Positions 671-5,096 of a stretch of 5,096 nucleotides of DNA are shown here, piece after piece. Every line of letters starts with the position of its first letter. Position 1 is the first letter of the stretch. Location of the stretch: assembly GCA_016209155.1 (NCBI GenBank), contig JACQWU010000055.1, forward strand, positions 1 through 5,096, given 5' to 3'. The DNA is from Candidatus Desantisiibacteriota bacterium. GTDB lineage: Bacteria; JACRDZ01. Made by a program: the position numbers and the translations under genes. The notes beneath the pieces were generated by a model. That model saw nothing but the letters and a program-made list of their open reading frames with translations, searched no databases and was not told where the DNA came from.

Positions 671-781
671 ATGAAAAAAACAAAAATATTAATTCCAATA
701 TTATTAATACTATTTTTAACAGCCTGCGGAATGAACAACAAAAATTCTCAAAATACGGAACAAGGTCAAAATTTTTATTGA
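671..781 (+). CDS. Fragment 1: lipoprotein signal peptide and start of the broken lipoprotein gene
   Basis: ATG at 671 opens a 36-codon frame ending in TGA at 779-781. The peptide has a textbook type II signal: positive n-region MKKTK, a hydrophobic stretch ILIPILLILFL, then lipobox L-T-A-C with Cys at residue 19. A Ser/Asn/Gln-rich tether follows (GMNNKNSQNTEQGQN). As it stands, translation yields only a short lipopeptide. The rest of the protein lies in the next frame, reached by removing one T from the run at 772-776. The start is 17 bp after the upstream stop, with only a loose purine stretch (aaaag) as a candidate ribosome site. Confidence 0.75.
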   Translation: MKKTKILIPILLILFLTACGMNNKNSQNTEQGQNFY

Positions 782-1187
782 TAATATATTATATTTTATC
801 ACAAATAATACCGGTTACTATAATATTGATAATATTTCTATAGGTACTCATACAATAAGTGCAACTAAAATAAACTATAAACCATATAATGATATTATTC
901 AAATAGATAAAACAGGGATAACGCATGATATTCAAATGATTTATAATAATAAACCTATTGCTTCTGCCGGACAGGATCAAAATGTTATAACAGGAAATAT
1001 TATAAAACTTGATGGAAGCGAATCTTCTGATGCTGATAATGATCCGATAACTTATTCATGGTCTTTTATATTAAAACCATCCACAAGTACCGCAGCCCTT
1101 TCAAATATATCAATAAAAAATCCTGAATTTGCTGCGGATGTTGATGTATTTATGTTTTTACTCTATCAGTTAATGATGGAATTATAA
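774..1187 (+). CDS. Fragment 2: CarboxypepD_reg-like remnant plus first part of a PKD/K319L-like domain
   Basis: This frame begins around FIDNILYF and has no convincing start of its own. TNNTGYYNIDNISIGTHTI, followed by a GY-like NYKPY, matches the second half of a carboxypeptidase-regulatory-like beta-sandwich ('T-D-x-x-G-x-Y-x-hydrophobic...G-x-Y/H-x-hydrophobic'). The first strand of that domain (typically G-x-V-x-D...) is not seen. Next comes KPIASAGQDQNVITGN, LDGSESSDADNDPITYSW and PEFAADVD, a clear PKD/K319L-like pattern. The frame then drifts into VFMFLLYQLMMEL and stops at 1185-1187, whereas the final strands of the domain are in the next frame from about 1145. Confidence 0.7.
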   Translation, partial: FIDNILYFITNNTGYYNIDNISIGTHTISATKINYKPYNDIIQIDKTGITHDIQMIYNNKPIASAGQDQNVITGNIIKLDGSESSDADNDPITYSWSFILKPSTSTAALSNISIKNPEFAADVDVFMFLLYQLMMEL

Positions 1188-1945
1188 ATAGTGATTTAGA
1201 TACTGTTAATATCGCATCAAAATATTATTCCACGGTTCCACCTCCACCAGCCAATGTGACTGCTATTTCAGGAAATGGAGAGATAACTTTAACATGGGAT
1301 AGCTGTTATGAAGCAATATCTTATGATATTTACTATGCAAAAAATTCTGGAGTATCAAAAAATAAATACGAACTTAAAATATCCGGTATTACTTCAAACC
1401 TTTATATACATAAAGGACTTACAAATGACATTACGTATTATTATATTATAATAGCAAATAATATTTATGGGCAAAGTGATAATTCAAAAGAAGTAAATGC
1501 CACACCTGCCATCCCGCCTTCGGCTCCAGCTTTTCTCAATGCTTTACCGGCTGGAGACAGTAAAATTGATTTATTCTGGCAGCCTTTAGCAGACAGCACA
1601 AAAGTTAAAGGTTACTATATCTATCGTGATGGTGTAAAAATTGATTCCACTTCAATTAATACTTATCGTGATATAAATTTAAATTCTAAAACAAAATATA
1701 ATTATTCTATTTCCGCATATGATTTTAATGGAAATGTATCACAACAAACAAATAAAGTTTCATCAACCACATTAGGAAATCCGGTATATTTAAGCGGAGA
1801 GATAACTGCTGATACTATATGGCAGGATGAATATATTATAATTATTGACAATGTTATTATTCCGGAAGATGTTAAATTAACAGTTAACCCCGAAACATTA
1901 TTGCATTTAATGGAAATTATAATATATTTGTTAAGGGAGAATTAA
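1145..1945 (+). CDS. Fragment 3: end of the PKD-like domain, two fibronectin type III domains, start of the beta-helix
   Basis: From 1145 this frame reads IYVFTLSVNDGIINSDLDTVNI, the last strands of the PKD-like domain begun in fragment 2. A proline linker (VPPPPANV) leads to FN3 domain 1: GEITLTWDS, YDIYYA, LTNDITYYYIIIAN, EVNATP. FN3 domain 2 follows: SKIDLFWQPL, VKGYYIYRDG, LNSKTKYNYSISAYD, NKVSSTT. Both carry the core Trp on strand B, the Tyr of strand C and the L...T.Y.Y.I.A pattern near strand F. The tail GEITADTIWQDEYIIIIDNVIIPEDVKLTVNPET is the usual N-cap of a right-handed beta-helix. The frame then turns to nonsense and stops at 1943-1945. The GTG at 1256 is not a believable start, because coherent protein precedes it. 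Confidence 0.75.
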   Translation, partial: CIYVFTLSVNDGIINSDLDTVNIASKYYSTVPPPPANVTAISGNGEITLTWDSCYEAISYDIYYAKNSGVSKNKYELKISGITSNLYIHKGLTNDITYYYIIIANNIYGQSDNSKEVNATPAIPPSAPAFLNALPAGDSKIDLFWQPLADSTKVKGYYIYRDGVKIDSTSINTYRDINLNSKTKYNYSISAYDFNGNVSQQTNKVSSTTLGNPVYLSGEITADTIWQDEYIIIIDNVIIPEDVKLTVNPETLLHLMEIIIYLLREN

Positions 1946-3291
1946 AAGTTTTGGGTTCTCCATTTAAAATAATTCGATTTATTAATAATAATTATCCCAA
2001 TGATAGTGATGTCAGCAGTATTATATTTGAATCTACAAGTATTGATGCTTATGCAGATAATCTTAATAATTATATAACTGTTGGAAGCGTTATTTCTTTT
2101 GCAGAATTAAGCCGCAATGTCTCTATTCAGATTGATAAGAGCTCCCCATATATTGGTGATAACTGGATACATTTCAATAAAGACACAATATTATTATGCG
2201 GGAGTTCTTCTATCATCAAAAATAATATTATCGAAGATAATTCCGGAAGCGGGATTGTGATTTATAATCAGGCTCCAAAAATAATAAAAAATATTTTACG
2301 AAGAAATAAAAGTATAAACGGAGGAGGTATTTTTGTTTCAAATTCAAACAGTTGTATTACATCCGGAAGTATTAATAATATTTTAATAGATGGGAATATT
2401 ATTGATAATAATATGGCTGAAAATGGTGCCGGAATTGCATTGTTTAATGGGCCGGCTACTATTAAGTATAATAATATCATTAACAATAAAAGTCATACTC
2501 CGGATAAAAGAGCCGCTATTTTTATTGATGGAAATAGTACCTATTCCATTACTAACAATAATATATGGGACTCATCTTTATATGAAATTTATTTAAACAA
2601 TAATGTGTCAGAAAATGTTGATGCTTCAAATAATTACTGGTACACCAATGATTCAACTATTATTGCAGAGAGAATACGGGATAAAAATGATGCGTCAATT
2701 TCAGGTTTTGTAGATTTCTCTGAATGGCTGGGTTATTATGAACAACATATAAAAACCAGTCCAAGGATTTCATTGAATGGGACAACCAAAAAACAAATTG
2801 CTGATTTCAGGATTCAAAAAGTTAATGAATATTATAATTTAAATTTATTTTCTGTAAATTATGATCCTTTAAAAGAACCGGGCAATAAGATTTACGGCTC
2901 GATAACCGATGGCGCAGATTGGATGGAGGATACTCAATATTATATATGTAATCCATATCTTTTAATGATTATTACATATCAAAATTATATTCGGCCTTTT
3001 GAATTTAGCAGTCAAGTTTCAGAAATTAAATATTTTAATAATATTATTGAAGAAATATATGATAAAGAAAGCGCACGTAGATTTTTTTTAGATTTAGAAT
3101 ATTATATGATTTATGCAGAGGCTTATGAGAGAGTTGTCGAGTTATGGATGGTTAATGCTTATGATGCCGGATATCTTTATGCTAATATCGATATTGACAA
3201 ATCTGCAAATATTAAACCATATAAAGATACTTCCACAAATATAATTAATTCTATTTATAGTAATTCAAGTTTTTATCATTATGGGCGTTAA
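1897..3291 (+). CDS. Fragment 4: right-handed parallel beta-helix and unrecognised C-terminal domain, ended by an in-frame TAA
   Basis: Starting near 1897 (IIAFNGNYNIFVKGELKVLGS), this frame continues the beta-helix cap from fragment 3 exactly where the family has 'PGTxIxFxxxxxIxVxGxLxAxG'. PbH1-type coils follow with Asn ladders: IIKNNIIEDNSGSGIVIYNQAPKI, ILIDGNIIDNN, ATIKYNNIINN, YSITNNNIW. The helix ends with NNYWYTNDSTIIAERI, then FVDFSEWL, a standard terminal coil of such repeats. About 190 residues follow (YYEQHIKTSPRISLNG onward) that I cannot assign. They include YGSITDGADWMEDTQYYICN and an acidic, Tyr-rich stretch. The TTG at 1951 is an unlikely true start. Helices of this type bind or cleave polysaccharides in some proteins, but no catalytic triad is evident here. 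Confidence 0.78.
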   Translation: MIAFNGNYNIFVKGELKVLGSPFKIIRFINNNYPNDSDVSSIIFESTSIDAYADNLNNYITVGSVISFAELSRNVSIQIDKSSPYIGDNWIHFNKDTILLCGSSSIIKNNIIEDNSGSGIVIYNQAPKIIKNILRRNKSINGGGIFVSNSNSCITSGSINNILIDGNIIDNNMAENGAGIALFNGPATIKYNNIINNKSHTPDKRAAIFIDGNSTYSITNNNIWDSSLYEIYLNNNVSENVDASNNYWYTNDSTIIAERIRDKNDASISGFVDFSEWLGYYEQHIKTSPRISLNGTTKKQIADFRIQKVNEYYNLNLFSVNYDPLKEPGNKIYGSITDGADWMEDTQYYICNPYLLMIITYQNYIRPFEFSSQVSEIKYFNNIIEEIYDKESARRFFLDLEYYMIYAEAYERVVELWMVNAYDAGYLYANIDIDKSANIKPYKDTSTNIINSIYSNSSFYHYGR

Positions 3292-3447
3292 AAAGTTAAT
3301 AATATAAGTCCATATGATGAAAATGCTTGTGTCTATATTATAGAAGATAATATTTATACATGTTTATATGTAAAATTATGGAGAACAAGACCTGTCAATA
3401 AAGATCAAAAAGAAGATTTAGCATTTATCATTAAAATAATGCCTTAA
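3292..3447 (+). CDS. Fragment 5: C-terminal 51 codons of the lipoprotein beyond the in-frame TAA
   Basis: Directly after the TAA at 3289-3291 the same frame stays open for 51 codons (KVNNISPYDENACVYIIEDN, then YTCLYVKLWRTRPVNKDQKE, then DLAFIIKIMP) to a TAA at 3445-3447. The alternating hydrophobic pattern (ACVYIIEDNIYTCLYVKLW) looks like paired beta strands. An open stretch this long is unlikely by chance in such AT-rich DNA. I therefore read the earlier TAA as a mutation or base error rather than the natural end. The alternative is that 3289-3291 is the true stop and this is fortuitous. Confidence 0.5.
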   Translation, partial: KVNNISPYDENACVYIIEDNIYTCLYVKLWRTRPVNKDQKEDLAFIIKIMP

Positions 3448-3512: not shown

Positions 3513-3731
3513 GTGCAGGCTCAGCACTATTTACTAAAAATGGGATATATATGGCGGAGAGACGGGACACAAAACGGAGGAGGCGGGATACAGAGCGGAG
3601 GAAGCGAGGCTGAAGCCTCGCACTACATGTCATACATTGTATGGCAGACGAATTATTCAAGTGCAACAGGGCATGAGCGGCAGATGTGGCAGGCGAGTTT
3701 GGAATATGTAATCCATGTATTATATAAATAA
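3513..3731 (+). CDS. Doubtful 72-residue ORF across a G+C-rich repeat patch
   Basis: I do not recognise this product. The frame is open from 3495 (after TAA 3492-3494), with GTG at 3513 and ATG at 3540 as possible starts; neither has a good Shine-Dalgarno. It reads MQAQHYLLKMGYIWRRDG, then three heptad-like units (RRDGTQN, GGGGIQS, GGSEAEA) encoded by imperfect 21-bp DNA repeats. A Trp/Tyr/His-bearing tail follows (WQTNYSSATGHERQMWQASL, then EYVIHVLYK). Base composition of the first half is far more G+C-rich than the neighbours. The last 12 bp overlap the end of the convergent acetyltransferase frame. It could be a small real gene, the tail of a decayed gene whose 5' part is lost, or a chance frame over a dispersed repeat. 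The coherent tail keeps the first two options open. Confidence 0.3.
   Translation: MQAQHYLLKMGYIWRRDGTQNGGGGIQSGGSEAEASHYMSYIVWQTNYSSATGHERQMWQASLEYVIHVLYK
3555..3617 (+). repeat. Three imperfect 21-bp tandem repeats, G+A-rich
   Basis: Units are 3555-3575, 3576-3596 and 3597-3617. Units 1 and 2 share 14 of 21 bases, and units 2 and 3 share 12 of 21, mostly the leading GGAGGA. On the + strand the block is strongly purine-rich and much higher in G+C than the surrounding DNA. The unit length is a multiple of three, so the repeat stays in frame with the overlapping ORF. Confidence 0.5.
3604..3621 (+). repeat. Perfect GC-rich hairpin (REP-like palindrome)
   Basis: GCGAGGC-TGAA-GCCTCGC is a perfect 7-bp stem with a TGAA loop, followed by ACTACA. 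Strings of the form 'GCGAGGCT..AGCCTCGC..CTACA' look like the dispersed intergenic palindromes seen in multiple copies in various bacterial genomes; that comparison is from memory. No T-run follows, so a terminator role is less likely. Confidence 0.45.
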
Positions 3732-3977
3732 CTTTTCAGCTGGTTGAATAGTTATGTTCTTAAATTCTTCAGTATTTATCCAATCCAAAGGTATAACATT
3801 ATTACCAAAAGTAAATATCTGAAGTTCTTTTGTACCTTTGCAATAAGATGATTTTAGCAGTTTATGAAATTCTTCCTTTGAGGAACATTGCCCGGATGAG
3901 AGAAACATAATACTAACCGGGGTGTGTATATTCACAGGGAACATAAAGATGCGGGAAGATATATGCTGATAAACCAA
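3720..3977 (-). CDS. C-terminal fragment of the acetyltransferase in the shifted frame
   Basis: This frame has only a TTG at 3977 as a possible start and overlaps frame A by about 65 bp. It supplies FPVNIHTPVSIMFLSSGQCS, then KEEFHKLLKSSYCKGTKELQ, ending in NITIQPAEKLFI at the TAA 3720-3722. It looks like a real helix/strand segment and is most simply the displaced tail of the upstream frame rather than its own gene. Confidence 0.55.
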   Translation of the reverse strand: MVYQHISSRIFMFPVNIHTPVSIMFLSSGQCSSKEEFHKLLKSSYCKGTKELQIFTFGNNVIPLDWINTEEFKNITIQPAEKLFI

Positions 3978-4866
3978 GTTTATATTTTGTTAGTCCATTA
4001 TTAAGAAATGCACGAGTACCGCCTATATTTATTTTTTTGTAACCTTTTTTTTGCATTTCTATAATAGTGAAATAATACGCCGCACCAATAATTCCTGCTT
4101 TTAAATATGCTTCATTTCCATTTTCAATACCAAGTCTTCTAAAAAATACACCATTATTTTTATACTCTACTATCATCCCACCCGCAGTTTCATTTTCTTT
4201 TTTAAAAATAAACAATTCAGAATTTTTACAAATTTTCATAAAATCCGAATAACTATCTATAATCGCAATATTAAGATGACGTTTTTTGATATAAGGCAAA
4301 TGCATATTATAATAAAAATTTTCAAATTGAATCTGAGATGTTGTTACTTCAAAGTTTAAATTATATTTTCGAATATGACGTTGAATATCTAAATAACCGG
4401 AACGGCGCAATTTGCGCATCAAATTCATGGGAAGCGAAATATCAATTTCCATTTCAAGCCAGGATGGTATTTTAAAAGACGGCTGTTTTTTAAATAAATA
4501 GTTTGTGAAAATATTAAATTCCACAAAAATCAGAATGCATTCAGGAAAGTTTTTACGCATAAAATTCCGGATGTTCCAAAATAGATGATAACCTATAAAT
4601 TCTTTTTTATATCCCGGAGAAAAGAATTCCTCCGCAAAATAATTATGATAAATATCATCGGATCCGGCATATATAAAAACAAATTCAATACCATTTAATT
4701 TACTTTTCCCATGGAATTTAAAAGCAGGAAGATATATTTTCTGGAATTGTCCCCAAACCCAGAAAATAGGCTTAAGAAATTTCCGGTTTTTTTCGGGAAT
4801 TCTTTGATAAAACTGTTTGAATTTTTGTTTATTATTTGAAATGAAATGCTGGTATATATTATTCAT
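3913..4866 (-). CDS. Main fragment of the acetyltransferase (residues 1-317)
   Basis: As sequenced, this is the longest intact product of the locus and contains essentially the whole GNAT core, including the GGTRAFLNNG motif. The last ~13 residues (from about PHLYVPCEYTHPG) probably come from the wrong frame. The truncated product lacks ~70 C-terminal residues, so activity is uncertain. The frame stays open upstream of the ATG to 4926 but crosses repeat-like DNA and has no other ATG, which favours the start at 4866. Confidence 0.72.
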   Translation of the reverse strand: MNNIYQHFISNNKQKFKQFYQRIPEKNRKFLKPIFWVWGQFQKIYLPAFKFHGKSKLNGIEFVFIYAGSDDIYHNYFAEEFFSPGYKKEFIGYHLFWNIRNFMRKNFPECILIFVEFNIFTNYLFKKQPSFKIPSWLEMEIDISLPMNLMRKLRRSGYLDIQRHIRKYNLNFEVTTSQIQFENFYYNMHLPYIKKRHLNIAIIDSYSDFMKICKNSELFIFKKENETAGGMIVEYKNNGVFFRRLGIENGNEAYLKAGIIGAAYYFTIIEMQKKGYKKINIGGTRAFLNNGLTKYKLGLSAYIFPHLYVPCEYTHPG

Positions 4867-4920: not shown

Positions 4921-4942
4921 TCTTCATTAAAATAATGAAGAA
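4920..4942 (-). promoter_or_regulatory. Perfect 10-bp hairpin in the leader of the acetyltransferase
   Basis: TTCTTCATTA-AAA-TAATGAAGAA is an exact 10-bp inverted repeat with a 3-nt loop, about 54 bp upstream of the ATG. No T-run follows on either strand, so it is not a canonical terminator. It could be an operator-like dyad, an RNA leader stem, or part of the mobile remnant beside it. Confidence 0.4.
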
Positions 4943-4974
4943 CCCTGCGGCAGATAGATTGGGTCAAATCAATT

Positions 4975-5002
4975 TTTATAAAAATTAAAAAATTTCAGTC
5001 AA
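4975..5002 (-). promoter_or_regulatory. Candidate sigma70-type promoter for the acetyltransferase
   Basis: On the minus strand TTGACT (5002-4997) is followed after 16 bp by TATAAA (4980-4975). Both boxes are close to TTGACA and TATAAT. Transcription would start near 4968 and leave a leader of about 100 nt containing the 10-bp hairpin. The region is very AT-rich, so a chance match is possible. Confidence 0.4.
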
Positions 5003-5012
5003 AAACTTTTGT

Positions 5013-5040
5013 TATCCCCCAAAATTTTTTATCGGGGATA
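5013..5040. repeat. Inverted repeat TATCCCC/GGGGATA upstream of the candidate promoter
   Basis: Perfect 7-bp arms at 5013-5019 and 5034-5040 flank a 14-nt AT-rich spacer. Lying just upstream of the candidate promoter, it could be a protein-binding dyad or a stem. Neither strand has a clear T-run after it that would mark a terminator. The rest of 5041-5096 shows nothing firm. Confidence 0.3.
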
Positions 5041-5096
5041 TGGTTTTAATAAACTGAATTCCAGCTAACCCATGAAGGACAATACTAAATCAAATT

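Follow-up and report, generated by a model that had tools for sequence, protein, structure and literature searches.

Evidence for a single modular surface lipoprotein gene, broken into five pieces, in a draft genome of Candidatus Desantisiibacteriota

The sequence between positions 671 and 3447 of the window, which is an entire contig (C30, 5096 bases) from a 3.08-Mb draft genome (352 contigs, estimated to be 79% complete), supports the reading of a single former gene, now broken, that would have encoded a modular, multi-domain surface lipoprotein. Its domains follow one another in the order lipoprotein signal, CarboxypepD_reg-like remnant, K319L-type PKD, two FN3 domains, right-handed beta-helix and orphan C-terminal domain, and they are spread over consecutive open pieces (Table 1). 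Three frame changes and a premature stop disrupt the gene, rather than the four frame junctions of the preliminary description, since the last break is an in-frame TAA. From the start that carries the sole signal peptide, translation stops after 36 residues, and so no full lipoprotein is expected from the present sequence. The region is an ordinary lipoprotein gene that is either decaying or badly assembled, and not a new kind of gene.

Table 1. Features of the window, with coordinates, strand, content and the evidence on which each was placed.
Feature	Position	Strand	Content	Evidence
Piece 1	671–781	+	Frame 2: start codon, signal peptide, lipobox LTAC and ~15 residues to break 1	Translation
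Lipobox Cys codon of piece 1	725–727	+		Translation
Piece 2	764–1147 (frame open to 1189)	+	Frame 3: CarboxypepD_reg-like remnant without its start, then first half of K319L/PKD	Pfam; codon bias 0.34
Piece 3	1148–1897 (frame open to 1945)	+	Frame 2: second PKD half, two FN3, first strand of the beta-helix cap	Pfam; codon bias 0.31
Piece 4	1900–3288 (open frame from ~1897)	+	Frame 1: right-handed parallel beta-helix (to ~2700), most of the orphan C-terminal domain	Pfam
Break 4	3289–3291	+	In-frame TAA stop; frame 1 reads ...YHYGR*KVNNIS...	Translation
Piece 5	3292–3447	+	Frame 1: probable C-terminal end and natural stop	51 open codons; codon bias
Gene fragment, not part of the lipoprotein gene	3513–3728	+	Directly downstream
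Neighbour gene, weak arginyltransferase similarity	3723–4866	-	Split into two adjoining open pieces that differ in frame

The pieces are genuine coding sequence. For each piece longer than 50 codons, codon bias peaks in the frame named in Table 1, at 0.24–0.34 bits per codon, and the long ORFs of the genome average 0.30. As the bias of the main pieces equals that of the intact genes of this genome, the breaks appear to be recent, leaving no time for decay of the coding signal. Piece 5 scores 0.24 in its own frame versus −0.42 and −0.82 in the other two and probably continues the same protein; a run of 51 open codons would arise by chance alone in ~3% of cases, which makes this assignment probable, not proven. 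Pieces 1 and 2, like pieces 4 and 5, are joined solely by their order, frame and codon bias, from which we infer that pieces 1 and 5 belonged to the same protein as the rest.

The lipoprotein signal lies in piece 1, where MKKTKILIPILLILFLTAC forms a signal peptide with a lipobox ending in cysteine, as judged from the translation alone; in a profile search this piece weakly matched several families in their lipoprotein-signal portion. The K319L-like PKD domain (PF22352, cut-off 27) is recovered over nearly its whole length only once pieces 2 and 3 have been joined: piece 2 alone matches PKD_4, above its cut-off, with 32.3 bits and K319L-like_PKD with 28.7 bits (profile positions 1–44 of 84), and repair of a net loss of one base at break 2 extends the latter match to positions 1–82 of 84 at 47.8 bits. 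Piece 3 contains two stretches matching fn3 (PF00041; 36.4 bits versus a cut-off of 25), and piece 4 two stretches matching Beta_helix (PF13229; 37.7 bits versus a cut-off of 25.9), together with a para_beta_helix repeat marginally below its own cut-off. The CarboxypepD_reg profile (PF13620) reaches 22.6–23.5 bits against a cut-off of 32.3, over about positions 31–71 of 82, and we regard the stretch on this similarity as a remnant rather than a member of the family. Profile searches thus bear out the PKD/K319L domain, both fn3 domains and the beta-helix that had been proposed at the outset, the CarboxypepD_reg assignment being the one that falls under its cut-off.

For the C-terminal domain (~2704–3444) we found neither a Pfam family nor a relative of solved structure, and no homologue turned up in the searched genomes. 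Against PDB sequences its sole match is meaningless (E 0.28), and when the domain alone or the full-length protein was compared with the genome and its relatives, similarity was confined to the beta-helix or FN3 parts. Two alignment-free structure predictions gave pLDDT values of 32–33, too low to be informative or to corroborate the beta-helix. The Pfam families K319L-like_PKD, fn3 and Beta_helix are building blocks of the protein and do not describe a full-length family; none in Pfam spans the whole architecture or the C-terminal domain.

The four breaks are not of one kind. Break 1 probably removed more than a single base, given that the CarboxypepD_reg domain lacks its start (the first ~30 profile positions). 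At break 3, continuous frames of other genomes (L013/L018, L149/L016, L150 and L022/L024) align without a gap across the junction, so that this break, like break 2, amounts to a one-base net loss; the same junction is also spanned by an intact lipoprotein of the same genome (L177:3617-4750). The preliminary description had repaired every break with a single base, and this fits breaks 2 and 3, probably not break 1, and not the in-frame TAA of break 4. Its statement that every break splits a domain into halves read in adjacent frames is likewise shown for breaks 2 and 3, break 1 lying at the edge of the CarboxypepD_reg-like stretch and break 4 within the domain that has no family. Its central claim of one gene in five frame pieces is supported by the mutual register of the five open pieces, by the completion of the PKD domain on joining and by the homologues that span junction 3, with the amendment that the last break is a nonsense codon and not a frame junction.

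An intact full-length homologue over all four junctions, which had been proposed as a check, was found in none of ~60 relatives, nor among GTDB genome contigs or in IMG/VR, collections whose scans may have excluded entries for this genome or a very close one, and a tblastn search of 1506 ORFs against the window gave no hit pair bracketing a junction at the level of the pieces. Homologues that end at the fragment borders, the result that would have spoken for separate genes, were likewise not seen. The closest systems each share part of the architecture. The intact beta-helix lipoprotein on contig C123 of the same genome (G000; L177:3617-4750, Pfam Beta_helix/NosD) has a lipoprotein signal with its own SGC, the beta-helix entry motif (SGxIxxDTIW ... 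IPxxxxLTxxPxT) and the parallel beta-helix, but is ~28% identical, lacks the PKD/FN3 stalk and has no matching C-terminal domain, its frame running off the contig end. An intact two-FN3 lipoprotein on contig C49, also of the same genome (L176:644-1348, minus strand), shares a signal peptide ending in cysteine and tandem FN3 domains, the best-matching of which is 50% identical to that of the present gene, whereas it comprises only 235 aa and carries neither PKD nor beta-helix. In a distant genome, an open frame of ~1047 aa (G027:C4; loci L017 and L151) covers residues 107–368 of the joined FN3/beta-helix query, and thereby junction 3, in one frame, although at ~27% identity and as compared over that query only.

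The sequence beyond the gene is also disturbed. Within the fragment directly downstream, positions 3538–3704 match, with 82% DNA identity, the interior of an ORF of 1894 aa that carries FG-GAP repeats (contig C285, L042 7002-7170, minus strand), and the fragment is apparently gene debris. A short palindromic repeat, GAGGCTGAAGCCTCGCAC, occurs at positions 3603–3628 of the window and on several other contigs (L037, L040, L041 and L043), partly within coding frames, where it encodes SEAEASHY; we take it to resemble the in-gene palindromic elements of other bacteria. The minus-strand neighbour consists of the pieces 3915–4866 and 3723–3989, with a frame change within ~3915–3989, near its 3′ end. 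Its arginyltransferase assignment is a weak match, and it has no homologue in 30 relatives. At the end of the window (4937–5096) lies a ~160-base repeat that recurs, 78–96% identical, at or near the ends of four other contigs (C280:1-162, C108:59-213, C100:67-226 and C287:1-119); its position at or near five contig ends indicates that it probably broke the assembly there.

As to the cause of the breaks, assembly error, a possibility that the preliminary description had left out, is demonstrable elsewhere in the genome. The single-copy rpoB gene is frame-broken with ~32 bases missing (G000 contig C276, L100, position 2769), and in alaS the break falls at an N run with duplicated edges (contig C332, L101, ~10622); valS is intact and rpoC is divided between two contigs. 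In a search with rpoB the best match, ~59% identical, came from a candidate division Zixibacteria genome, followed closely by KSB1 and many others. Since rpoB and alaS are essential and single-copy, their broken frames make assembly artefacts certain in this draft. The ORFs of two genomes of the same phylum were compared with ~0.58 Mb of the draft, giving 113 kb of conserved coding DNA. This survey returned 16 frame breaks, all with a net change of at least 10 bases and six with Ns nearby, one internal stop and, over the same 113 kb, no one-base indel. Mis-joins are therefore common in the draft and one-base errors rare.

With this background, we favour, with modest confidence, a recent inactivation of the gene by real mutation in this bacterium, as part of a local decay. 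Breaks 2–4 (two net one-base losses and one nonsense codon) all fall within 2.2 kb, and the two one-base breaks taken together with the stop, the broken neighbour and the downstream gene fragment argue for real local decay over assembly error. Against this stand break 1, where the missing start of the CarboxypepD_reg domain resembles the artefacts of the draft, the poor state of the draft itself, with its many contigs, its incompleteness and its certain artefacts, and the fact that our searches found no full-length intact orthologue.

The main alternative, which we hold tentatively as a real but lesser possibility, is that the cell carries an intact gene, the breaks being assembly errors introduced at mis-joined gaps or in a low-coverage contig. 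The broken frames of rpoB and alaS and the N runs with duplicated gap edges are in keeping with this, as is the rate of 1.4 frame breaks per 10 kb of conserved genes versus 0.5 in the related control G001 (two breaks in 38 kb, a small sample), and errors may cluster in low-coverage contigs. Many frameshift ‘pseudogenes’ in assemblies are, moreover, technical in origin (PMC11017572). However, the artefacts of this draft consist of N gaps or of indels with a large net change, and two one-base breaks with a nonsense codon in 2.2 kb are unlike that type of error. Nor is the rate of frame changes estimated by codon bias raised above that of two relatives, in a simple count that cannot tell breaks from overlapping genes and serves for comparison only. 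The window was itself chosen for looking broken, which inflates, and so weakens, any comparison of it with the genome average.

It is very improbable that the pieces are separate small genes, each an independent frame making its own protein. Possible start codons do occur in some of them (936, 1256 and 1951), but the signal peptide is confined to piece 1, the PKD domain and the beta-helix cap are each split by a piece border, and homologues extend across junction 3, so that this reading is largely refuted. We give equally little credence to programmed frameshifting or phase variation, by which recoding or switching at the breaks would sometimes yield the full protein as a mechanism of surface variation. 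Surface lipoproteins can be phase-variable, and there are runs of five T close to breaks 1 and 2; yet the cell would need to get past three separate frame changes as well as an in-frame stop, and the breaks are conserved in no relative. Phase variation by long repeats is ruled out, as no run at the breaks exceeds five bases and there is no long simple repeat. An alternative genetic code is ruled out because only one of the four breaks is a stop codon, the other three shifting the frame.

Whether through local decay, as we prefer, or through assembly, the three frame changes and the premature stop would block production of the protein in the present sequence. The domain families suggest what the intact protein may have done. 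Its signal peptide and lipobox would route the protein into Sec export, with its lipidated cysteine as the anchor, and the immunoglobulin-like domains (CarboxypepD_reg-like, PKD, FN3 and FN3) would form a stalk holding the beta-helix and the C-terminal domain off the cell. This distal end would most likely bind, or possibly process, a polysaccharide or other surface ligand.

As the same draft breaks rpoB, genes that appear absent or short in this genome are not to be trusted. The region also holds a lesson for annotation, in that gene callers would list several short ‘hypothetical proteins’ here and overlook one lipoprotein. The protein itself would be a surface lipoprotein of a common mosaic type, with a single orphan domain at its C-terminus.
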